From IMG/VR virus record IMGVR_UViG_3300039159_000250, positions 1 to 34,291 of that record: a stretch of DNA of 34,291 nt; one strand, 5' to 3'. The notes under the pieces were generated by a model, which was not told the origin of the DNA, did no database searches, and saw only the letters and a list, made by a program, of their open reading frames with translations. Numbering within the stretch: the first letter of the stretch is position 1; each line of letters begins with the position of its first letter. Below, piece by piece: positions 2,380 through 23,908 of this stretch. The stretch is from a virus. Position numbers and translations under genes: made by a program.

Positions 2380-3285
2380 TTATTGATCTGATTGATCTTC
2401 AACTATTACTTTTGCTTTTGCTTTTCGTCCCTTTGGAGCAACAGCGACTTGTGATGCTGTTGCTTTAACGAGTGCCATCATAGTAGTCATTTGTTCCATC
2501 ATGGCTTTATTCTGATCAGCAAGCATCTTATTTTGCTCTTGTACAGCACCCATCATTATTTGCTGTTCAGGATTCAACGGTGGGGCTTCCTCGTCAATGG
2601 ATACACCCGTTCCTGATCGTAACTTGTTCATAATCTTTCCATCTGCTCCACTAAATTGAACACCACGAAGATCGTCCGCTGTTATTTCTTCGCCACCAAC
2701 TGGTGCTGATGGAACATACGCTTGTGATGATGGTGACCCGTATTCGTTGTTTCGTAAAAGTTTATCGGGAGAAGGTGGGATACCTTGTTGCCCTGGTTGA
2801 CGTTGACCACCAAACGGTACATATGTCCAAAAATTAGACCCTTGACCCATGTTTTTAACAATAGATTGTAGTCTTGTTGCTTTTGTTCCATTAACTAATT
2901 GGTCCATCATACCTGGGCGTTTATTAAATGTTGAAAGAACAATATGTTTAGCAGTTTGTTCGTCTGTAGCAAAAACAAAGTAAAAGTTCTGAACACCAGG
3001 TTGAAAGTTTTTGGCTTCAACTCTACCTGTTGTATCAATAACCACAAGAAATATTTCCGACATAATGATATCCTTTATTGTTGTATCTATTATATCAGTT
3101 TTCTTTGTAACCGCTAATGGTTTTTGTGGTTTAGATATAATATTTGGTTTTGGTGGGATTATTGGCAAGTTTATATTATCATTTGATGATAAATTTACCA
3201 ACGATTTTTCTTCGTCTTCGTCTTTATCTTTAAGAGGAATTATAAGTTTCTTTGAACCAAATAATACTTTAAAAAAGTCTAACAT
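2380..3285 (-). CDS. Unrecognised 301-aa protein inserted between genes 44 and 62
   Basis: The ATG at 3285 overlaps the stop of gene 44 (TAATG) and has GGAGAT upstream. Residues 1-74 are low-complexity, acidic then proline-rich. From residue 75, 'MSEIFLVVIDTTGRVEAKNF...NFYFVFATDEQTAKHIVLSTF' looks like a compact alpha/beta domain, followed by a Gln/Gly/Pro-rich linker (about 160-190), a Met/Gln-rich helix (about 240-275, likely coiled coil) and a basic tail (PKGRKAKAK). The Met at residue 75 (position 3063) has its own good ribosome-binding site (AAAGGAT), so a 227-aa form may be made from inside the gene. In T4, genes 44 and 62 are adjacent; a gene between the clamp-loader subunits suggests a replisome-associated role, but no family could be named. 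Confidence 0.75.
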   Translation of the reverse strand: MLDFFKVLFGSKKLIIPLKDKDEDEEKSLVNLSSNDNINLPIIPPKPNIISKPQKPLAVTKKTDIIDTTIKDIIMSEIFLVVIDTTGRVEAKNFQPGVQNFYFVFATDEQTAKHIVLSTFNKRPGMMDQLVNGTKATRLQSIVKNMGQGSNFWTYVPFGGQRQPGQQGIPPSPDKLLRNNEYGSPSSQAYVPSAPVGGEEITADDLRGVQFSGADGKIMNKLRSGTGVSIDEEAPPLNPEQQIMMGAVQEQNKMLADQNKAMMEQMTTMMALVKATASQVAVAPKGRKAKAKVIVEDQSDQ

Positions 3286-4208
3286 TATTCACAAATCTCC
3301 TTGCAAATAGAAATTACACATGTAATAAAGTTTATTTCAGGATCAATAACAATTGAATGCCATCGGGCGGCATCTCCTACCGCCAGCATAATATTCAACT
3401 TCTTTTCATTTTTTATATCAGATGCTCTATTAAATAGTATTTTATATAAATCATTATAGTCTGCATTACCAACTATTTCTTGCCTAATTGCCTTAACATT
3501 CATTTCTTGTATATATTGAATTAACTTATTTTCAATTGCATCTCCTTCAAGATCATCTTTATATTGAAAGATGCCACCAATAGTAAGTTTTTGTAATGCG
3601 TTGATAGTGCGACGAATATCTGGATGATATTTGTTTATTAATTTAAGTAAATCATTTTTTAAATTTGGTGAAGTTATACCTTCTTGTCTGAGAATCTCGG
3701 CACACCGCCTTATAACAGATAATTTAAGTGTTTTTTCATCTGCTGTAAAAGTAAACGTCTGACATCGTGACTTGATTGGTTCAATTATTTTCTTTTCGTA
3801 GTTACATGTAAGAATGAATCTACTGTTATCAATATATTCTTCCATGGTGTTACGCATAGTTTCCATTGCTTGCCACGTCATACCATCAAACTCATCAAAG
3901 ATAACAACCCGAAGTCCCCCAAACGATGCCATCGAACAAAACGAATCAACTTTATTACGAATTACATCAACACCTTTTTCTTGTGATGCATTTATATAAA
4001 GTATATTTCCTTCGTCTGTGATTGCTTTGGCAATCAATTTAGCACATGTACTTTTTCCTGTGCCTGGACGACCACAAAAAAGTAAATGTTGTAGTGTTTT
4101 ATTATCTATAAATTCCTTAAACTTAGCGAGCATTATCGGATCACCGAGAACATCATCTAAATTTTTTGGTTTGTATTTTTGGACCCATGGGCTATCACTA
4201 ATTGTCAT
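3285..4208 (-). CDS. 44: Clamp-loader large subunit gp44 (AAA+ ATPase)
   Basis: gp44 is the ATPase that, with gp62, loads the gp45 clamp on primer-template DNA. The 307-aa product shows 'PWVQKYKPKNLDDVLG' at the start (typical of the RFC/DnaX group), Walker A GRPGTGKST (46-54), Walker B VVIFDEFDG (101-109), sensor 1 'LTCNYEKKI' and the arginine-finger SRC motif (147-149), then a helical collar domain. The length is close to T4 gp44 (319 aa). It begins 11 nt after gene 45 with an AAGGAAT ribosome-binding site, and its stop overlaps the start of the following gene. Confidence 0.95.
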   Translation of the reverse strand: MTISDSPWVQKYKPKNLDDVLGDPIMLAKFKEFIDNKTLQHLLFCGRPGTGKSTCAKLIAKAITDEGNILYINASQEKGVDVIRNKVDSFCSMASFGGLRVVIFDEFDGMTWQAMETMRNTMEEYIDNSRFILTCNYEKKIIEPIKSRCQTFTFTADEKTLKLSVIRRCAEILRQEGITSPNLKNDLLKLINKYHPDIRRTINALQKLTIGGIFQYKDDLEGDAIENKLIQYIQEMNVKAIRQEIVGNADYNDLYKILFNRASDIKNEKKLNIMLAVGDAARWHSIVIDPEINFITCVISICKEICE

Positions 4209-4219
4209 GAACAGATTCC

Positions 4220-4969
4220 TTATATGAGGGTACGAATAAAATATTCTATGTTATAAAGATTTTCGGTTTTTTTAAGTTGTATTACTTCGTGATAAATATT
4301 GAATAATGTTCCTACTGAAAGAACATTTCCAAAGTGTTCCTTATTAATTACTACCTTAAAATCCGATGTAACTTGAACAGGTATTTTCTTTATAAAACTA
4401 TTACCACGAACATCTTTATCTGCTACCGTAAGAGTTATAAAATTTTGTGATGTGTTGCTTTTAAATATTATATGTTTATGGTCAAGTTTTCCAGCAGCAA
4501 TTAAAAATTCTTTAAACGACGAATCACAAGTTAGGGTTGAAAGAATAGGTGAGTCAACATCGCCATCTTCGCCTCGCTTTATTTTTGATATATCTGCTCC
4601 GTAATAATCAAGGTAATTTTCATTTGAGCTTATTGATGCTATTTCAGGTGCCATCTTTATTTCAAACCCACTCTTAAAAATTTCTATTAACCCTACAAAA
4701 TCTTGAAGTTTTGAAATACCGTATTTAAAATCATTATTAATAGTGAATCCGTCAAGAATACTTGAATCAAAATTAATTCTTGCACAAACGGTACCAATAC
4801 TATTAAGTGAATTTATAGAAAGTGATTTCTTTTCACCTGTTTTAAACTCAAGAATTAATTTTTCAACGCCGACTTTTGTAAGTGAATTTAATGCTGTAAT
4901 AAATGCTTTGGCGTTTTCTTCTGTAAACGTTCCAGAAAGGGTTGGAATTGATGTATTCGCAATAGACAT
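4220..4969 (-). CDS. 45: Sliding clamp gp45
   Basis: The 249-aa product is placed directly before gene 44 and is the expected size for the trimeric PCNA-type clamp (T4 gp45 is 228 aa). It starts 'MSIANTSIPTLSGTFTEENAKAFITALNSLTKVG', consistent with the first helix and strand of the fold, and ends in alternating strands without catalytic motifs. In T4-like phages gp45 tethers the polymerase and also couples gp55 and gp33 to replication-dependent late transcription. A ribosome-binding site AGAAGGAAAC and a strong sigma70-like promoter (4991-5018) precede it. Assignment rests on order, length and N-terminal pattern. Confidence 0.85.
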   Translation of the reverse strand: MSIANTSIPTLSGTFTEENAKAFITALNSLTKVGVEKLILEFKTGEKKSLSINSLNSIGTVCARINFDSSILDGFTINNDFKYGISKLQDFVGLIEIFKSGFEIKMAPEIASISSNENYLDYYGADISKIKRGEDGDVDSPILSTLTCDSSFKEFLIAAGKLDHKHIIFKSNTSQNFITLTVADKDVRGNSFIKKIPVQVTSDFKVVINKEHFGNVLSVGTLFNIYHEVIQLKKTENLYNIEYFIRTLI

Positions 4970-5025: not shown

Positions 5026-6270
5026 TTATTCTTTTATTTTTTGAAGTAGTTGATCTTTACAATCTATTACATAACCATTATTTATAAATTTTTCAGTGTT
5101 AAAAATAATTGATGATTTTATTTCTGTTACATTTTTCCCACCAACAGTTTCAAAAAAATCAATAAGTTTTATAGGTGTTCCAAAAAAACTTATTTCATTT
5201 TCATCACTTTCATTAATATATTTAATTATATATTCTGTAAGTTTTCCAACATCTGTAGGAAAAATATATTGATCAGGGTCAGCAAGCATAGTTTCTTTAT
5301 TTTTTGCCTTATTTTTCAACTTACTTACAATATTTTGTGTATCGTTTTTGTCATTTGAAAAGAGATTAGCAACACGTATTATGTTTACATTAAGTCCTTT
5401 TAAATGATATTCCATATCTTTTTTAGATTGTGTGTAAACAGATTTGTCATTTTCTCTGAAAACATAATCTGTACTAATTTGGTAAAATTTACAACCAATC
5501 ATTTTTGATTTTTTCGCAAGAGCAACTGGTAATTCAACATTACACCAACGTACTTCATTATTATAATTAACTAATTTTTGAACATCTGTAAGTGCTATAC
5601 AATTTATAACAATCATTTTTTCGGGTTGACATATAACTGGATTTATTTTTGTTAGTTCGATAAATAATTTCTTAACATCTTCATCACAATTTAATCTCTG
5701 AAATATGGGAATAACGTGATAATTATGGTATCCCATGTTATTAAAAAGATTTTCAACAATAGCTTTACCTAGTCTACCATCAGCACCTAATATAACATAT
5801 GTTGTTAAATCATCGCTAATTTTCTCTTCGTGTCTAATTTCATCAATTGGACTTTTCTTATTTTCGCCCATAAATAGTGCATCTGGAAAATTCATAGTTT
5901 TTATTGAATTATTTTCCAAATTTCTATATGAATGAACAATACCAGTAGAAACAGAAACATTAGTTATTTTATTTGGATCTGTTATATGGTATTTCATTTC
6001 TCCTGTTTTTGGATTATATAACTGATATACCATTCTTGAATTCCAAGTAACAAATTCATCAGTTTGTGAAACATGTTCATGTGGTCCACGCAGAACTAAA
6101 GAGTTTGTTTCACTTATATAACACATTTTTGAGTTATGTGTTATGTCGGAATCTGTTCGGAAAACTTCAGATACCATTCCTCTTGTATCATTGTACGTTT
6201 TTAAGCATCTAATTTTTACCTTACCATCAAAAAATTCACAAACTGTTTGGTAATTTATTGTTTTATCCAT
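5026..6270 (-). CDS. RmlC-RmlD-like fusion: dTDP-4-keto-6-deoxysugar epimerase plus reductase
   Basis: The 414-aa product combines two steps of dTDP-deoxysugar synthesis. Residues about 20-140 form a cupin like RmlC (dTDP-4-keto-6-deoxyglucose 3,5-epimerase): 'MVSEVFR', then LRGPHEH (60-66), the equivalent of the RGLH signature with the catalytic His, then 'VYQLYNPKTGEMKYH' and a G-I-V-H-S-Y segment. Residues about 155-414 are an SDR reductase like RmlD: GADGRLG nucleotide-binding loop (162-168), STDYVF (266-271) and the catalytic Y-x3-K pair at Tyr279/Lys283. It starts 4 nt after the rmlB-like gene ends, so the two form one operon. Product stereochemistry (rhamnose or another 6-deoxysugar) cannot be read from sequence. 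Confidence 0.82.
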   Translation of the reverse strand: MDKTINYQTVCEFFDGKVKIRCLKTYNDTRGMVSEVFRTDSDITHNSKMCYISETNSLVLRGPHEHVSQTDEFVTWNSRMVYQLYNPKTGEMKYHITDPNKITNVSVSTGIVHSYRNLENNSIKTMNFPDALFMGENKKSPIDEIRHEEKISDDLTTYVILGADGRLGKAIVENLFNNMGYHNYHVIPIFQRLNCDEDVKKLFIELTKINPVICQPEKMIVINCIALTDVQKLVNYNNEVRWCNVELPVALAKKSKMIGCKFYQISTDYVFRENDKSVYTQSKKDMEYHLKGLNVNIIRVANLFSNDKNDTQNIVSKLKNKAKNKETMLADPDQYIFPTDVGKLTEYIIKYINESDENEISFFGTPIKLIDFFETVGGKNVTEIKSSIIFNTEKFINNGYVIDCKDQLLQKIKE

Positions 6271-6274
6271 ATAA

Positions 6275-7267
6275 TTATCTATAATCCTCTTTCTTCATAA
6301 AATAAAATTCTGCGGTGTGGACAATGGCATTATCAAGTTTTATATCTTTAAAATATTCGTCAATTTCTTTAGTTGTTTTTAGTGCGTAACAAAGGTCGTG
6401 GCCTAGACGATCTGGTACATATTCAATTTGTGGTGTTACGCCAGTACATAAACCTATGGCATCAGTGAGAACATCAGCTATATGATTATTTGAAACAAGA
6501 CCATTTTTATTAGCAATATGTAAAACATCAAAGTTATCAAGAATAGATATCTTATCAAGAATTATCTTCGCTGTAATATCAACAGGGGTCCATTGGCGCA
6601 TATTTAAACCTGTCCCATATACTTTTATTGATTCTCCTCTAAAAGAACGTAAACAAGAAGCAGGAAGCATCTTTTCTGGATGTTGAAACATTCCAAATTG
6701 ATTAGCCATTCTTATAAAATGTACAGGAATATTAAATGTACGACGCATCGCCATAAGATAAGCATCTTGAGCGACTTTTGATGCACTATATGGATTGCTT
6801 GGATTAAAACTACTATTTGTATTAAACCAATCCTTTTCATCAACTTCTATAGGAAGATCACCATATACTTCATCGGTTGAAATATGATAATAACTACGAA
6901 TTGAATTTAAATCATCAAACGACAAAAGTAGTCGTGACGGAATAATAGAATTTTCTTCATAATTTGCTGATGGATTAGATATGCTGTTATCAACATGACT
7001 GTTTGATGCTAAATCAAGAATATCCCAATCGTAATTTGGAGAAAATCTAGTATGATTTATCATTTCATTTATATTAATATCTAATCGTTCAATTTGTAAT
7101 CCATCACATAATTCTTTGTATATTTCACGATTATATAATGTTGCATATCCCAATTTATCAATACTAACAACACGATCATATTTAGCTCTGAACTCGGGAG
7201 TCATTTTCAAAAGCACATTAATTCCTATGAAGCCTGCTGTTCCGGTTAGTATTAGTCCATTTTTCAT
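6275..7267 (-). CDS. rmlB: RmlB-like dTDP-glucose 4,6-dehydratase
   Basis: This extended-SDR enzyme converts dTDP-glucose to dTDP-4-keto-6-deoxyglucose. The 330-aa product has the NAD-binding G-x-x-G-x-x-G loop (G9, G12, G15), the dehydratase triplet T-D-E (131-133, in STDEVYG) and Y-x3-K (Tyr160/Lys164, in YSASK). A later 'GTGLNMRQWTPVDI' matches the sugar-nucleotide-binding R-x-W/F region. The ribosome-binding site is AAGGAAAC. It lies just after gene 32 and before the RmlC-RmlD fusion. Related 4,6-dehydratases acting on other NDP-hexoses are an alternative, but the neighbour favours the dTDP pathway. A glucose-1-phosphate thymidylyltransferase (RmlA) is not in the window. Confidence 0.85.
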   Translation of the reverse strand: MKNGLILTGTAGFIGINVLLKMTPEFRAKYDRVVSIDKLGYATLYNREIYKELCDGLQIERLDININEMINHTRFSPNYDWDILDLASNSHVDNSISNPSANYEENSIIPSRLLLSFDDLNSIRSYYHISTDEVYGDLPIEVDEKDWFNTNSSFNPSNPYSASKVAQDAYLMAMRRTFNIPVHFIRMANQFGMFQHPEKMLPASCLRSFRGESIKVYGTGLNMRQWTPVDITAKIILDKISILDNFDVLHIANKNGLVSNNHIADVLTDAIGLCTGVTPQIEYVPDRLGHDLCYALKTTKEIDEYFKDIKLDNAIVHTAEFYFMKKEDYR

Positions 7268-7284
7268 AAGTTTCCTTATATATT

Positions 7285-7293
7285 ATTATAACA
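7285..7293 (-). promoter_or_regulatory. Extended -10 promoter before rmlB
   Basis: TGTTATAAT on the minus strand, immediately after the hairpin that follows gene 32. The -35 region is poor. It would give the sugar genes a transcript independent of gene 32. Confidence 0.4.
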
Positions 7294-7295
7294 AG

Positions 7296-7321
7296 AAGGA
7301 AGAGTATTTCTACTCTTCCTT
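7296..7321 (-). terminator. Hairpin between gene 32 and rmlB
   Basis: A perfect 11-bp stem (AAGGAAGAGTA / TACTCTTCCTT) closes a 4-nt loop, GAAA in the minus-strand RNA. It lies 30 nt after the gene 32 stop. The following tract is T-rich but not a clean U-run on this strand, so it may be a partial terminator, an RNA-stability hairpin or a processing site. Confidence 0.6.
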
Positions 7322-7351: not shown

Positions 7352-8332
7352 TCACTTCATATCAAGATCATCAAGTTGTGCAAGTAACTCATCATCAGTT
7401 AACTGCTTTGTAGGAGCAGGTTTCTCTTTTAAAACTGGTTGACTATTCGGTACATTAACAACTGGAGAATCAAGATCCACTGCTTCGTTCAACGAAGGAC
7501 GGGAACTCATAGGACGACTTGTGGTCTGTCCTGTGGCTGAATCATATTCGCGCTCAGTCTTTACGGGTTCTCTACCTTCCATAAGATCCGTAAGTTCATC
7601 ATATGACTTTGGACCTTTTCCAAGAGCGAATTTATTAAGATCAATAATTCCATTACTAATACGATCAAGTTCTATATCATCATTGGTAATAGGAGTTGCT
7701 TCAGATGCAAAGAAACTAGACTCGTAATTAAGATGTTCGCCTTTCTTTTTAATAACAAGATGGAAATTAAATCCGTCTTGGACCGCATAAAACTTTTTAC
7801 CTTGTTCAACAAGAGCTTCCTTAAGGCGGTCATGTACCTGTGGACCCATTTCCCACACAAGAACCTTACCTTTCTGATTTCCCTTATCAATAGGACGAGG
7901 ATCTTCTACAACAAGAACATTAACAAAATAACGTGGCTTGTGATAGAAACGACGAGCAGTGTCCTCTTCGGCCTTTGATGCTGTTTTATCATTAACTTTC
8001 TTAAAAAGTTCGCGTGATTTTTCACATAGAGGGCACTTTGCTTTATTATCTAACGTAGAAGGACATAATGCAAATCTTTTTATTCCTTGTGGATTTGGAA
8101 AAATATGAACTAGTGTTTTAACCCATGGTTCATCAAGTCCACCATTTACAAATGTATTTGGAAGAATTCTGAGAACATATGTTGATTTCAACCCAACCAA
8201 TTCTGATTTGAATTTGATTTCATCATATGTTTGTTTTGGAGCCGTTTTCTGCTCCTTGGCTTCTTGTTCTGCCTTGAGCTTAGCGCGAAGCTCGTCTGCA
8301 TTAACGGTTAGATTTTTAAGTGATACTGACAT
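7352..8332 (-). CDS. 32: Single-stranded DNA-binding protein gp32
   Basis: gp32 coats single-stranded DNA during replication and recombination. The 326-aa product (T4: 301) has a lysine/arginine-containing N-terminal domain (LKNLTVNADELRAKLKAEQEAKEQK), which in T4 gives cooperativity. The OB-fold core contains the zinc site His76, Cys90, Cys100, Cys103 with the T4 spacing C-x9-C-x2-C. The C-terminal tail is acidic (DDELLAQLDDLDMK), the part that in T4 recruits partner proteins. The ATG is preceded by AAAGGAAAC and an unusual A-rich leader that may serve autoregulation. A hairpin follows the gene. Confidence 0.93.
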   Translation of the reverse strand: MSVSLKNLTVNADELRAKLKAEQEAKEQKTAPKQTYDEIKFKSELVGLKSTYVLRILPNTFVNGGLDEPWVKTLVHIFPNPQGIKRFALCPSTLDNKAKCPLCEKSRELFKKVNDKTASKAEEDTARRFYHKPRYFVNVLVVEDPRPIDKGNQKGKVLVWEMGPQVHDRLKEALVEQGKKFYAVQDGFNFHLVIKKKGEHLNYESSFFASEATPITNDDIELDRISNGIIDLNKFALGKGPKSYDELTDLMEGREPVKTEREYDSATGQTTSRPMSSRPSLNEAVDLDSPVVNVPNSQPVLKEKPAPTKQLTDDELLAQLDDLDMK

Positions 8333-18597: not shown

Positions 18598-18625
18598 ATT
18601 ATACTATGTTATTATTATTCGTCAA
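18598..18625 (-). promoter_or_regulatory. Sigma70-like promoter of gene 47, positioned for a leaderless transcript
   Basis: TTGACG, 16-nt spacer, TATAAT on the minus strand, then 6 nt and the ATG. It overlaps the 3' end of gene 55. Confidence 0.65.
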
Positions 18626-19082
18626 TAGGTGTTGGTATATTAAAACTATTAAGATTATAAATTATTCGCTGATGAAGTTTTATAAACTTATCTTTAAGTT
18701 TTGAATGCTTCTTTTCTTTGTTTATAATTTGGATAAATGCGCGGTGAATAATGGTTGTACAATATGAAAAAGCATTTGGTACTTTTCCTAAAGCAACTTG
18801 ACGTTCTGCCTTAAATGATTTTGAATATTTAACTAAAAATAAAAGAGCATATCCTTTCATTTCATCAAGATATGTATAACTTTTAAAACAAGCGGCTGAC
18901 CCACAACGATCAACGTGCATTTTCCAAAGTTCACCTAGACGCTCCGACGCCTTTTGATTTTTAACATAATCTATAACTTCTTTTGTATATTCAGCATGAT
19001 CAATGTAGTATCGTGTAGGATCTGCTTGGCGTTTCCTCTTTATGATTTTAAGTGGAACTTTTTGGTCAACTTCATCGGTCAT
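18615..19082 (-). CDS. 55: Late sigma factor gp55
   Basis: gp55 directs host RNA polymerase to TATAAATA late promoters. The 155-aa product (T4: 185) carries the shortened region-2-like core: 'LGELWKMHVDRCG' then 'YLDEMKGYALLFLVKYSKSF', 'NAFSYCTTIIHRAFIQIINKEKK', matching the gp55 pattern '..Y.....EMI.DG.......F.....NP.AY.T......F...I.KE.K'. It lies immediately upstream of gene 47, as in T4-like phages, with GGAGC before the ATG. The many exact late octamers in the window fit its presence. Confidence 0.88.
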   Translation of the reverse strand: MTDEVDQKVPLKIIKRKRQADPTRYYIDHAEYTKEVIDYVKNQKASERLGELWKMHVDRCGSAACFKSYTYLDEMKGYALLFLVKYSKSFKAERQVALGKVPNAFSYCTTIIHRAFIQIINKEKKHSKLKDKFIKLHQRIIYNLNSFNIPTPIDE

Positions 19083-19158: not shown

Positions 19159-20202
19159 ATGTCAGATAAAAAATTTAAAACAGTTATTCTATTTCCATCA
19201 GATAAGAATGGCTGTGGATTTCATAGAACATTTGTACCTTTTAATTTCTTAACATCAAAGTTTCAATATGATTGTCCTGCTATGTTTGCGTTTATGTTTG
19301 ATTTGAATTATTTAGCAAGGGCTGATTATATACGATTTCAACGACAAGTAACTGTTCAGCAGTTAAAAGTTGTAAAAGAATATAAAAGAATGATTACACA
19401 ACTCAAATCAAGTGCAAAAATAGTTTATGAACTTGACGATCTTGTTCATGGAATCGGTGAACATAATATTCTTGCTTACCAATTTTATACAAAAACTAGG
19501 CGTAATAACCTTATTGAATTAATGAACGTAGCAGATACTGTAACTTTCTCAACACAATTTTTAAAAGATTATTATTCTACTAATTATAATATTAATCATT
19601 CTGTTGTAGTTCCTAACTTACTTCCTAAGTTTATGTGGGGAAATCTTGGAAAAAGAGACAAGTATAATAAAGGTAAGAATGGCAAGTTACGTATATTCTG
19701 GGCAGGATCATCTTCACATGTTGGTAAGGGCGGTGACTTGGAATTTCTAGTACCATTGATAAAAAAGACAGCAAATGAATTTGAATGGGTATTCTTCGGA
19801 ACAAAACCACCAGGACTAAATGATCTTGTTGAATTTCATAATTGGAAAGATTTTTATGAATTTCCTAACGCTATGGATGAAATAGATGCTGACATAGCAT
19901 TAGCTCCTATTTCAGATTCGGAATTTAATATGGCAAAATCCGATCTTAAGTTACTTGAGATGAGCGCAATTGGATTACCAACTATTTGTAGTTCGATCGG
20001 TAATAAGGGCGGTCCATATGATTTAATACCAAATATATTGACTGTTGAGAATAAAGTTGATGCTTGGTATGCTGCTATTAAAAAACTTGAATTAGATCCT
20101 TCATTAAGAATGCAATATTTAGAAGCTGGACAAGCTGAGGTCAATCGTCGTTGGCTTGAAGATCCGAAAAATCACCAAGTGTACCTTGATGTTTATAAGT
20201 GA
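19159..20202 (+). CDS. GT-B (GT4-like) glycosyltransferase, 347 aa
   Basis: The N-terminal half has 'TVILFPSDKNGCGFHRTFVPFNFL' (a glycine-rich acceptor-side loop) and 'AKIVYELDDLVHGIG', common in phage GT-B enzymes. The C-terminal half starts with 'LRIFWAGSSSHVGKGGDLEFLVPLI' and 'EWVFFGTKPPG' and ends in 'FNMAKSDLKLLEMSAIGLPTICSS', the donor-binding K-x-x-E region typical of GT4. It should move a sugar from a nucleotide donor to an unknown acceptor. The ribosome-binding site is AAAGGAA. It is divergent from gene 55, next to the position where T4 has its DNA alpha-glucosyltransferase gene (between 47 and 55), though the sequences are not visibly alike. It ends at a strong terminator. Confidence 0.8.
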   Translation: MSDKKFKTVILFPSDKNGCGFHRTFVPFNFLTSKFQYDCPAMFAFMFDLNYLARADYIRFQRQVTVQQLKVVKEYKRMITQLKSSAKIVYELDDLVHGIGEHNILAYQFYTKTRRNNLIELMNVADTVTFSTQFLKDYYSTNYNINHSVVVPNLLPKFMWGNLGKRDKYNKGKNGKLRIFWAGSSSHVGKGGDLEFLVPLIKKTANEFEWVFFGTKPPGLNDLVEFHNWKDFYEFPNAMDEIDADIALAPISDSEFNMAKSDLKLLEMSAIGLPTICSSIGNKGGPYDLIPNILTVENKVDAWYAAIKKLELDPSLRMQYLEAGQAEVNRRWLEDPKNHQVYLDVYK

Positions 20203-20658: not shown

Positions 20659-22458
20659 TCAATCTTGTAAAACTACATGTTTTTTCATTGTTATTCCTCT
20701 TTTATTTAGTTCATCAGCAATGAAAAATATAATTGAATTTTCTATTTTACTAAATTTACACGTTGTATTTCTAAAGTCTGGAATTATATTTCTCCATTTT
20801 TTATGAAGCATAATTGAGTTTTTTATAAATATATTTAAATTTTCTTCATTTAAAAGATTTTTAAAACCATCAGATAGATGCGTACATGGACAATTAATAG
20901 CAAAGTTTTTAAATCCTTGTTCTATATACGATAAACATAAATCAGTACCATAACAATGAAAATTTGGAAATCTTTTTGGATCAAATCTTATATGGTTACC
21001 AGCTTTAATAATTAAACACAATTCATCAAGACACTGTACCTCTGTAAACAATTCGGTACGTGTACTTCCTGTTAAATAAATAACCCCATCACTATCATTT
21101 TTATTAGACCAACTTCCAGCCATTCCTAAAACCCCAAAATTTTTCTCGTTAATTATAAGTTCTCTTATTTTAATAAATATATCACTTAACCAATTATTAG
21201 GAACTAAAAGGTCTTGATGACACATCATAATGTATTCACCCTCAGCAATTCCTATTCCTATATTCAATGCTTCGGCGCAATTATTATATTCACCATTAAA
21301 ATTAGGCAATGTTATAATTTCAAAATTAAAATCACAATCTTGCTTTCCTAAATCATTAAGAAAGTTTATATATTGTTCCATATTATTAACTACTGTAATA
21401 ATACTAAATTTTTTACTTATACGTGATACATACTTCAATTCATTATTAAATTTACCATATAGTAAATTGTAATCTAAATGTTTTAGTTTAAGTTTCTCAT
21501 TGTTATTTGCCCAAAAACTATTTCTTGATGTATTATCATAATGATTAATAAGTGCATCACGATCACATATAATAGCATAATCATGCATTCGTATTATAAT
21601 ATTGAGTTCTACATCTTGAAAAATATCATGATATTTTTCATTAAGACCACCTACCTCCCAAAATATAGAAGATTTAATTAACATTCCAGCACATGTTATA
21701 CCATCTGTGTAGTGTATTCCGTTTGGTACATGATCAACATTACGTTTAAGATTTACATGTGTTGGTCCACCAAATGATTTATTCGCATGGTCATATATTA
21801 TTTGACCATCATGTTGAATAAGACCATCTTTATATAACATACGAGGACCACATGCACCAACTTTTCTTGTAATTGCAATACGAATAAGTGGTGTTACGTA
21901 ATCATTTATTGCTAATGTATCATTATTTTGAATAAGAAAAAAATCAGCATCTACTAATTTTAATCCATAATTATAGTTTTTAGAAAAATGATATTCACCT
22001 ACATTAATAATTTGTATAGGAAACGTATTTGGATTATTTGTAATACTATTATAGAACTGTAAAGTTTGTTTGTCAGAAGTTCCAGTATCAAAAATATAAA
22101 TTTTTGTATTTTTGTATTTTACATTTTTTATAATGCTATTAATACATTCAGAGATAAGATAATATGAGTCCTTTGAAAGAATACATATCGCAACCGATGG
22201 AATTCCTGATTTTTTATATTGTTGTACAAACGAAATAGATTTTTCAATTTCTTTTTTATTTTCATCATTATAATTTGATAATGAACTTTCATGTGTAACT
22301 AGTGTTGATACTGTATTATTAACTTTAATATTTATCGGTGTAAGTCCGTATATAGATAATTGTATAGGTCCATCAATAATTTGGCCTGGGTAAATAATTG
22401 TTTTTTTACCTTGATATACGATAGTTATTGGTTTCTGTTTTTCATTTTTAAGCTTCAT
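20659..22458 (-). CDS. Double-domain GT2 glycosyltransferase, 599 aa
   Basis: After an N-terminal strand-rich region of about 90 residues, a first GT2 domain runs from 'SVAICILSKDSYYLISECINSII' through 'FFLIQNNDTLAI' (the DxD-position motif), 'GACGPRMLYKDGLIQHDGQI' and 'GGLNEKYHDIFQDVELNIIIR', a layout common in rhamnosyltransferase-type GT2 enzymes. A second, shorter GT2-like domain begins at 'FSIITVVNNMEQYINFLNDL' and has 'GEYIMMCHQDLLVPNNWL'. Thus one protein may add two sugars, or one domain may be non-catalytic. I choose the ATG at 22458, with GAGG at a good distance, over a TTG two codons earlier; the gene overlaps the end of uvsW by 11 nt, implying coupling. Confidence 0.8.
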   Translation of the reverse strand: MKLKNEKQKPITIVYQGKKTIIYPGQIIDGPIQLSIYGLTPINIKVNNTVSTLVTHESSLSNYNDENKKEIEKSISFVQQYKKSGIPSVAICILSKDSYYLISECINSIIKNVKYKNTKIYIFDTGTSDKQTLQFYNSITNNPNTFPIQIINVGEYHFSKNYNYGLKLVDADFFLIQNNDTLAINDYVTPLIRIAITRKVGACGPRMLYKDGLIQHDGQIIYDHANKSFGGPTHVNLKRNVDHVPNGIHYTDGITCAGMLIKSSIFWEVGGLNEKYHDIFQDVELNIIIRMHDYAIICDRDALINHYDNTSRNSFWANNNEKLKLKHLDYNLLYGKFNNELKYVSRISKKFSIITVVNNMEQYINFLNDLGKQDCDFNFEIITLPNFNGEYNNCAEALNIGIGIAEGEYIMMCHQDLLVPNNWLSDIFIKIRELIINEKNFGVLGMAGSWSNKNDSDGVIYLTGSTRTELFTEVQCLDELCLIIKAGNHIRFDPKRFPNFHCYGTDLCLSYIEQGFKNFAINCPCTHLSDGFKNLLNEENLNIFIKNSIMLHKKWRNIIPDFRNTTCKFSKIENSIIFFIADELNKRGITMKKHVVLQD

Positions 22459-23908
22459 TGACAATTACCTCTTTAATATTAAAGTTAAATTTATTTAAAT
22501 TATAGTAACGTATACGAGCAGTAATATGTTTTTTTGAATGATGTGTATTCTCACCAATATCAAACAATAATAACTGATCCTTTGTAGGATGTTTTCTAAG
22601 TCCTCGTCCGACTGATTGTAATGTTTGTATCTTACTTTTACCAGATGATGCGAAAATAAGTATATGCATACGGTTTATAGAAACACCTGTTGAATAAACT
22701 CCAGTTGTTGCTACAGTAATTTGACCACCAGCAGTTTCCATATCATGGCGTACTACATTACGATCTGCAATTTTCATATCACCACATACAAAATTTGGTT
22801 TATGTCCCATTGCTTCAAGCATCTTTACTAGTCGCTCACCATGATCTATTTTTTTAACTAGAATAAGACCATTCTTTCCTTGTTTAACGTACTTATCCAT
22901 TATCTTACATATAATATTGTTACGATATTCATTGTTTTCAATAAATTCCTTCTCAATATCATATGTTATATCGGCCATATTCTCAAGTTTCTCTTTTGAA
23001 TAAATGAGTTTTATCATTGTAATCTTTAAAGGACTAATCGTTTTCTCACGCTCAAGTTCCTCGTATAAAGCTTGATCAATCACAGGACCAAGAACTCCTT
23101 GGACTAAAAGGTTATCTGTTTTTTGATCAGGCATTGTTCCCGTGAATCCGAGTCGCCATGCACAATTAATGACTTTTTCAGCAACACTACGAACAATATC
23201 GGCTTTAAGCCCATGTGCCTCATCTGCTATAAACACAGTAAACTCTTTAAGAAATGGTGCATTTTTATAAACAGATTGCCATGTTGATATAATTATTGGT
23301 TGAGTAACATCTTTTTGTAAGCCAGTAAACTTACCTAAACACGTTTCTGGTATACCGTATTTAACCATATCCTCATAGAATTGTTCAACAAGATCCAACT
23401 TCGGAACCATGATAAGAAACTTATGGTTAATGTTTTTATATCTTAAAAAGTTAACAACCATAGTAATCGTATATGACTTACCAGAACCAGTACCATGTTC
23501 ACATATACCACGTTTATGGTATAGTGCCTTAATAGCACCTCGCCACTGATAAACATAAGGGTCTAGAACAGTCAATGTTTTGTTTGTATATTCTATAAAC
23601 TCTCGCTTAAGCTCCTTGATATCTGTAAACTCTTTTTCATATCCTTCGTCAAGTTCAATATCATATTCATCACCAAAAAACGCTAGAACTTTGTCTAAAA
23701 TACCATTATAAAATCTACCAGATTCTGATATAAAATGTATCTTTCCATCCCATATTCCAGCTTTATATTTAGGCATAAACCAGTAATTATCTACTGGTAT
23801 AGAAAATCTTTTATATAGTAATTCAAGAGCACTATAATCATCGGTGACGACATGTCCCCATGTATTATTAACTTTTACAATACGCACTACTGATTTTGCG
23901 ATATTCAT
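22448..23908 (-). CDS. uvsW: UvsW helicase (SF2)
   Basis: UvsW unwinds R-loops and branched DNA and shuts off origin-dependent replication late in T4 infection. The 486-aa product (T4: 503) has a small N-terminal domain ('WFMPKYKAGIWDGKIHFI', typical of UvsW), motif I GTGSGKS (139-145), motif II DEAH (228-231), 'LGFTGTMP' (motif III), and motif VI 'QSVGRGLRKH'. Its ATG overlaps the uvsY stop (TAATG) with GAAGGG upstream. The uvsW-uvsY neighbourhood is as in T4. Confidence 0.94.
   Translation of the reverse strand: MNIAKSVVRIVKVNNTWGHVVTDDYSALELLYKRFSIPVDNYWFMPKYKAGIWDGKIHFISESGRFYNGILDKVLAFFGDEYDIELDEGYEKEFTDIKELKREFIEYTNKTLTVLDPYVYQWRGAIKALYHKRGICEHGTGSGKSYTITMVVNFLRYKNINHKFLIMVPKLDLVEQFYEDMVKYGIPETCLGKFTGLQKDVTQPIIISTWQSVYKNAPFLKEFTVFIADEAHGLKADIVRSVAEKVINCAWRLGFTGTMPDQKTDNLLVQGVLGPVIDQALYEELEREKTISPLKITMIKLIYSKEKLENMADITYDIEKEFIENNEYRNNIICKIMDKYVKQGKNGLILVKKIDHGERLVKMLEAMGHKPNFVCGDMKIADRNVVRHDMETAGGQITVATTGVYSTGVSINRMHILIFASSGKSKIQTLQSVGRGLRKHPTKDQLLLFDIGENTHHSKKHITARIRYYNLNKFNFNIKEVIVNEA

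Follow-up and report, generated by a model that had tools for sequence, protein, structure and literature searches.

The nearest comparable module is that of the Stephanstirmvirinae (phi92, Phapecoctavirus), in which dTDP-rhamnose genes are found, as here, in the DNA-metabolism region, there beside ribonucleotide reductase genes, and in which a GT-B glycosyltransferase near pol I is about 27% identical to the GT4-type enzyme of the window. The rmlB-rmlA-rmlC-rmlD module of these phages differs in that RmlC and RmlD are separate, classical proteins, RmlA is included, the site is not in a T4-type replisome cluster and RmlB belongs to another clade. A Patescibacteria operon (L212) resembles the window in that a cupin of the same family fills the RmlC slot beside RmlB and RmlD, although cupin and RmlD are separate genes there, RmlB is of the canonical clade and the context is cellular, with GT2 genes. 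Staphylococcal CapF, whose substrate is derived from UDP-GlcNAc, likewise joins an SDR reductase and a metal-type cupin in one chain, with the domain order reversed. In the fusion described here the cupin comes first and the SDR part is of RmlD type; domain order and SDR type together rule out a classical CapF function. Mimivirus R141 (PDB 6vlo) is among the matches of the RmlB encoded in the window; R141 and L780 of this eukaryotic giant virus form a two-protein route to UDP-L-rhamnose, with a single SDR epimerase-reductase and no cupin. The DNA glycosylation of T4 and RB69, finally, also relies on early T4-like genes for sugar attachment, and differs in that a hydroxymethylase is not conserved in the window lineage and that a GT4 enzyme is present instead of the T4 alpha/beta-GT type.

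Phage rml genes, including those in a DNA-metabolism region, are already known. What is new is the cupin-RmlD fusion with its non-classical cupin, the fixed site in a T4-type replisome cluster and the lock-step inheritance with the GT4 enzyme; an identical module was not found described in our literature searches. Sugar-nucleotide genes of phages are usually seen as patchy auxiliary cargo, whereas here the replisome, a deoxysugar branch and a glycosyltransferase that matches it have been passed on together throughout a lineage, which makes glycosylation appear basic to the life of these phages.

The window is an entire IMG/VR contig (G000) of 34,291 b with no end repeats. Its minus-strand cluster has the order gp43, UvsX, gp41, an 88-aa ORF, gp32, RmlB, cupin-RmlD, gp45, gp44, a 301-aa ORF, gp62 and regA (Table 1). 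The genes for gp44, gp62, regA, gp41, UvsX, gp43, gp46/47 and gene 55 were assigned via Pfam/PHROGs and gp32 by Pfam, while gp45 was assigned by position, size and a weak PDB trend in which the RB69 clamp is the best match (E 0.13). The two sugar ORFs, of 414 and 330 aa and separated by 4 nt, thus lie between genes 32 and 45, where a preliminary description of this DNA had placed a deoxysugar operon. At 739-1128 the window also holds a 129-aa HAD-phosphatase-like ORF (phrog_1238), and a similar stretch is found within a 627-aa nucleotidyltransferase protein of G006 (L011).

Table 1. Coordinates of the features discussed, with the basis of each assignment
Feature	Position	Strand	Basis
gp44 clamp loader large subunit	3285..4208	-	PF00004, PF21328
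gp45 sliding clamp, downstream neighbour	4220..4969	-	Position, size; weak PDB profile matches to RB69/T4 clamps, E 0.13-0.28
Fusion of N-terminal metal-motif cupin (aa ~1-147, RmlC-equivalent) and C-terminal RmlD-type reductase (aa ~155-414)	5026..6270	-	PF14667, PF04321 above cut-off
Cupin domain, H64-x-H66-x4-D71 ... H113-x3-N117	5830..6270	-	Six-member alignment
RmlB-type dTDP-glucose 4,6-dehydratase, 330 aa	6275..7267	-	TIGR01181, Pfam, PDB, catalytic motifs
TGTTATAAT, extended -10-like element immediately upstream of RmlB	7285..7293	-	Sequence
Hairpin AAGGAAGAGTA-GAAA-TACTCTTCCTT after gp32, likely gp32 terminator	7296..7321	-	Read in sequence
gp32 ssDNA-binding protein, upstream neighbour	7352..8332	-	PF08804 E 1.4e-19
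Gene 55-type late sigma factor, GT4 neighbour	18615..19082	-	phrog_12791/234
GT4-type (GT-B) glycosyltransferase, divergent from gene 55	19159..20202	+	phrog_7162 E 3.5e-37; 20-row alignment
Double GT2 glycosyltransferase with N-terminal ~45-86 aa domain	20659..22464	-	PF00535 E 2.7e-14, PF13712 E 1e-8

The dehydratase matches TIGR01181 over its full length (E 2.6e-55), passes the Pfam cut-off for Epimerase and GDP_Man_Dehyd and matches dTDP-glucose dehydratases in the PDB (1g1a, E 2e-38). The motifs GxxGFIG, TDE and YSASK are invariant in the alignment of relatives, DRxGHDxxYAL is kept, and the protein has the extended-SDR set of GxxGxxG, TDE and YxxxK, in line with the earlier reading of an RmlB-like enzyme with an intact NAD loop and Y-x3-K pair. 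In the tree, in which bacterial RmlBs were thinly sampled, the phage RmlBs group in a clade of their own (support 100/100), to which those of phi92 and Patescibacteria do not belong. Since the score on TIGR01181 (187.8 bits) is below the equivalog cut-off (365.1) and the clade is divergent and separate, we name the protein RmlB-type and not an RmlB equivalog. The strong profiles, the conserved motifs and the presence of full-length genes in the contigs exclude chance resemblance or gene decay. Between the window and L004, dN is 0.17 for RmlB, 0.28 for the fusion and 0.20 for gp45, with dS saturated and dN/dS therefore unreadable.

In the fusion, PF14667 matches the cupin at aa 27-136 and RmlD is matched at aa 159-358. 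The reductase half reaches 71.3 bits on PF04321 (cut-off 27) and 61.6 bits on TIGR01214, under the equivalog cut-off of 224; Y279 and K283 of the Y-x3-K pair are invariant, as are the motifs GAxGRLGK, S[ST]DYV and Y-x3-K among relatives (GADGRLG, ISTDYVF and YTQSK in the window). The PDB RmlD 1vl0 matches this half with E 5e-17 and is also the top Foldseek match of the AlphaFold model of the fusion (pLDDT 89). The cupin half carries a germin-like metal motif (HxHx4D...Hx3N), with H64, H66, D71, H113 and N117 invariant in the six-member alignment, and is matched by PF14667 in all six members. It does not reach the gathering score of PF00908 (RmlC), which matches in two of the six members with a best E of 0.06; the cupin of G012 scores 12.7 bits against a cut-off of 27. 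Cap5F is the only PDB match of the cupin profile. The RG-x-H context of the RmlC catalytic His is retained, R61, G62 and H64 being invariant, while the catalytic Tyr, at the position after the second cupin motif where we take it to lie in RmlC, appears swapped for Ser/Thr. By its PF00908 score the cupin half is not a classical RmlC, and the label fits its likely function and not its family membership. Of the RmlC-RmlD-like fusion proposed previously, the RmlD part with its NAD loop and Y-x3-K pair is intact, whereas membership of the RmlC family fails with the missed PF00908 score. The fusion had no match in PHROGs, and a full-length counterpart was not found in the cultured-phage collection.

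Standalone homologues of this cupin occur near RmlB in three of three Patescibacteria genomes; they pass PF00908 there, as no other protein of these genomes does, and one of these genomes (L212) has a complete cupin-RmlB-RmlD-RmlA operon followed by GT2-like genes. This makes an RmlC-equivalent function the best guess for the phage cupin and dTDP-L-rhamnose the likeliest product, and suggests that Patescibacteria have an alternative cupin of RmlC type. We infer the exact sugar from this, and a dTDP-L-rhamnose-type product of the operon is likely; with the cupin below the PF00908 score and the apparent loss of Tyr, the epimerisation could be of another kind and the end product another sugar, such as 6-deoxytalose or 6-deoxyallose. 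The search for a thymidylyltransferase gene that had been recommended gave a divided answer: RmlA homologues, 38-41% identical to phi92 RmlA, are present in G006, G028 and G029, but none was found in the 71.5-kb contig nearly identical to the window (G001), in the 214-kb G012 or in the other, partial contigs searched. Where none was found, dTDP-glucose of the host may be used. In G028 (332 kb), RmlA lies beside the gene for a PAAR-like spike protein and a small protein with the N-terminal domain of the double GT2 enzyme (L222:5002-6687), which hints at a structural-gene setting.

In IMG/VR scans the fusion was found in 13 loci, and further contigs were reached through a search with the GT4 glycosyltransferase; the contig set holds several near-duplicates and amounts to about a dozen lineages and not to twice that number. 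In every contig covering the region, with lengths of 8 to 332 kb (records of 116.5, 136.8, 214.2 and 331.8 kb among them), the operon sits between gp32 and gp45, and the order gp41-(small)-gp32-RmlB-fusion-(0 to 3 ORFs)-gp45-gp44 is kept wherever the contig reaches, with small ORFs occasionally intervening between RmlB and the fusion. Within the syntenic contigs identity falls to about 42-45% for RmlB and to 24% for the clamp. A 71.5-kb relative (L002), 99% identical to the window, adds genome on the left side, and in G032 the fusion is kept and an RmlB match is absent. Pairwise identities correlate with those of the helicase gp41 at 0.79 for RmlB, 0.83 for the fusion and 0.91 for GT4, as compared with 0.85-0.96 for other replication genes. 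The divergence of the operon thus tracks that of the helicase, as befits an old core of genes passed on vertically, and synteny and correlation together rule out a recent single acquisition. A large uncultivated family of T4-related phages has, as a fixed part of its replication cluster, a two-gene operon that looks capable of making an activated sugar of rhamnose type, along with sugar-transferring enzymes of its own.

A GAPDH-RmlB-fusion arrangement is also present on a 4.5-kb contig of a 'Candidatus Komeilibacteria' MAG (L049:262-3630). In the tree this RmlB falls inside the phage clade (support 94/95), and the full fusion occurs in only one of 380 genomes of that phylum. This makes transfer from a phage or misbinning likelier, and we reject Komeilibacteria as donor or host.

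The two glycosyltransferases noted earlier elsewhere in the window were confirmed as a GT4-like and a double GT2 enzyme. GT4 was found in eight of the ten operon contigs searched, the other two (G001 and G007) not covering the gene 55 region. Conversely, the GT4 query retrieved 25 contigs at an identity of at least 48%, and all of these that extend beyond gp32 carry RmlB, the fusion or both, while distant homologues (24-30%) are mostly without them. The mean pairwise identity of GT4 (0.56, over fewer contigs) is higher than that of gp41 (0.47). The GT4 model (pLDDT 90) gave PglA, MshA, BshA, SdgB and TarM as Foldseek matches in the PDB, enzymes that act on small molecules, lipids, teichoic acid or protein; the T4 DNA glucosyltransferases are not among the best matches, and of two viral 'DNA alpha-GT' entries the first comes only at rank 27 and the second at rank 42. 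The double GT2 gene is conserved beside UvsW in relatives, and its N-terminal domain recurs in a small protein whose gene adjoins that of RmlA in G006 and G028, which tentatively ties this enzyme to RmlA. GacB is an example of a GT4 rhamnosyltransferase with TDP-L-rhamnose as donor (PMC6802508). A distance of ~12 kb separates the operon from the glycosyltransferases, which are paired with it through co-conservation only; this co-conservation supports the earlier suggestion that they make up a phage glycosylation system, and we infer that GT4 and the double GT2 enzyme use the sugar of the operon. A second, variable glycan cluster is seen in G001 at 15.7-24.1 kb (L012:15709-19056, L013:53-5123), with a GDP-mannose dehydratase, a methyltransferase, an SDR epimerase, a DegT aminotransferase and GT10-, GT7C- and GT21-like enzymes.

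As to timing, in close relatives of the window gp32 is followed by the hairpin and then directly by the TATAAT element and RmlB, and equivalent stems of changed sequence precede RmlB in L005, L008, L025 and L084. TATAAT is found at most 80 nt upstream of RmlB in 16 of 22 regions and a late motif in one (some contigs counted twice), and upstream of GT4 in 18 of 19 regions, with a late box in one (a few contigs counted twice). Late-type TATAAATA boxes precede u407, u278, u925, u142, u175 and the u150/u151 pair, and are enriched before ORFs, with 7 of 34 in the window against about 0.6 expected and 21 of 117 in G006 against about 1. The presence upstream of sigma-70-type TATAAT and not of the late TATAAATA box supports early or middle expression. 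The predicted promoter motif matches agree in this for operon and GT4, and the early expression proposed for the operon is borne out to that extent. Directly downstream of cupin-RmlD, several relatives encode a conserved lipoprotein of ~270-300 aa with a lipobox, a coiled coil and about three membrane stretches (L012:12394-13203, L004:7901-8821, L025:5582-6487, L217:15696-16538 and L084; located elsewhere in G001), with a late-type TATAAATAC box at the gene in several cases; it is possibly a spanin-like or exclusion protein.

We propose an early, phage-encoded dTDP-6-deoxysugar pathway in which phage glycosyltransferases modify an acceptor borne by the phage, a proposal that we regard as evenly poised between right and wrong. 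RmlB would convert dTDP-glucose, provided by host RmlA or in some relatives by phage RmlA, to the 4-keto-6-deoxy sugar, which the cupin half of the fusion would epimerise and the RmlD half would reduce, most likely to dTDP-L-rhamnose; GT4, and probably also the double GT2 enzyme, would then transfer the deoxysugar to an acceptor brought by the phage. The conservation of the module across many phages of very different genome sizes argues for an acceptor carried by the phage. Together with the weakened case for DNA, this leads us to prefer a virion protein glycan, although we put its chances a little short of even. Early expression neither singles out nor excludes virion decoration. Virion protein glycans are known in mycobacteriophages (Freeman et al. 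2023, cited by PMC12619734). The moraphage jumbo lineage is described as having four core glycosyltransferases, and its description mentions neither rhamnose nor dTDP (PMC12619734). With three or four genes named for joint testing, the question of what phages glycosylate early in infection becomes answerable.

It is unlikely, in our estimation, that the sugar is instead placed on phage DNA, as rhamnosylated or deoxysugar-modified bases protecting against restriction and CRISPR like the glucose or arabinose of T-even phages. The position in the replication cluster, the early-type upstream motifs and the core conservation would suit this, as would the thymidylate-synthase family genes in G001, G006, G007, G026, G028 and G029. 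However, the hydroxymethylase search called for in the preliminary description was not encouraging: a PF00303 gene was not found in the 214-kb G012, which has the full module and may be incomplete, nor in several partial contigs, and the PF00303 protein of G001 looks like an ordinary thymidylate synthase in which the Asn of FNISSYALL is kept. T4 dCMP hydroxymethylase has Asp at this position. The best Foldseek matches of GT4 also speak against DNA as acceptor. DNA modification was proposed by Olsen et al. for phapecoctaviruses and phi92-like phages (PMC7552041), yet phi92-like phages are described as exceptionally RM-susceptible (PMC8594841). In a bolder version, the T4-related lineage, with its jumbo phages, would use a dTDP-deoxysugar for an obligatory glycosylation of its own DNA or of a component coupled to replication, without hydroxymethylated bases, and the operon would be a hallmark pair of the replisome cluster; this seems to us decidedly improbable. 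Near a thymidylate synthase gene of the near-identical relative, L002:11810-12343 encodes a nucleoside 2-deoxyribosyltransferase-like protein (PF15891, E 2.8e-32).

An early change of the host envelope, through a rhamnosylated surface polysaccharide or lipid carrier that excludes superinfection or spares progeny from adsorbing to debris, we likewise consider unlikely, even if envelope polysaccharides typically involve GT4/GT2 enzymes together with Rml genes, the fold of GT4 resembles that of PglA, TarM and the like, early expression is compatible, and G001 has its separate variable glycan cluster. One conserved enzyme set over phages of very different size, with presumably varied hosts, is hard to fit with a host-specific acceptor, and a flippase or polymerase was not seen among the genes examined. 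Of the earlier view that early expression favours DNA modification or host-surface alteration over virion decoration, the host-surface part stays conceivable, while the DNA part is weakened by G012, G001 and the phi92-like phages, and an early timing is no argument against virion decoration. That the pair only tops up the host sugar pool as classical auxiliary metabolic genes, with no dedicated phage glycosyltransferase, is very doubtful, for although rmlB/rmlD are reported as auxiliary in Patescibacteria phages (PMC12911398) and rmlB/C in trench viruses (PMC9529941), auxiliary genes are usually patchy, whereas this operon has a constant place in the replication cluster, descends vertically and goes together with GT4.

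In one relative the DNA polymerase is interrupted by a 371-aa ORF (L221:14551-18855), the downstream piece starting with an intein-like C-terminal end (..ILVHNSCYVN), and similar splits of the polymerase are seen in L057 and L065.
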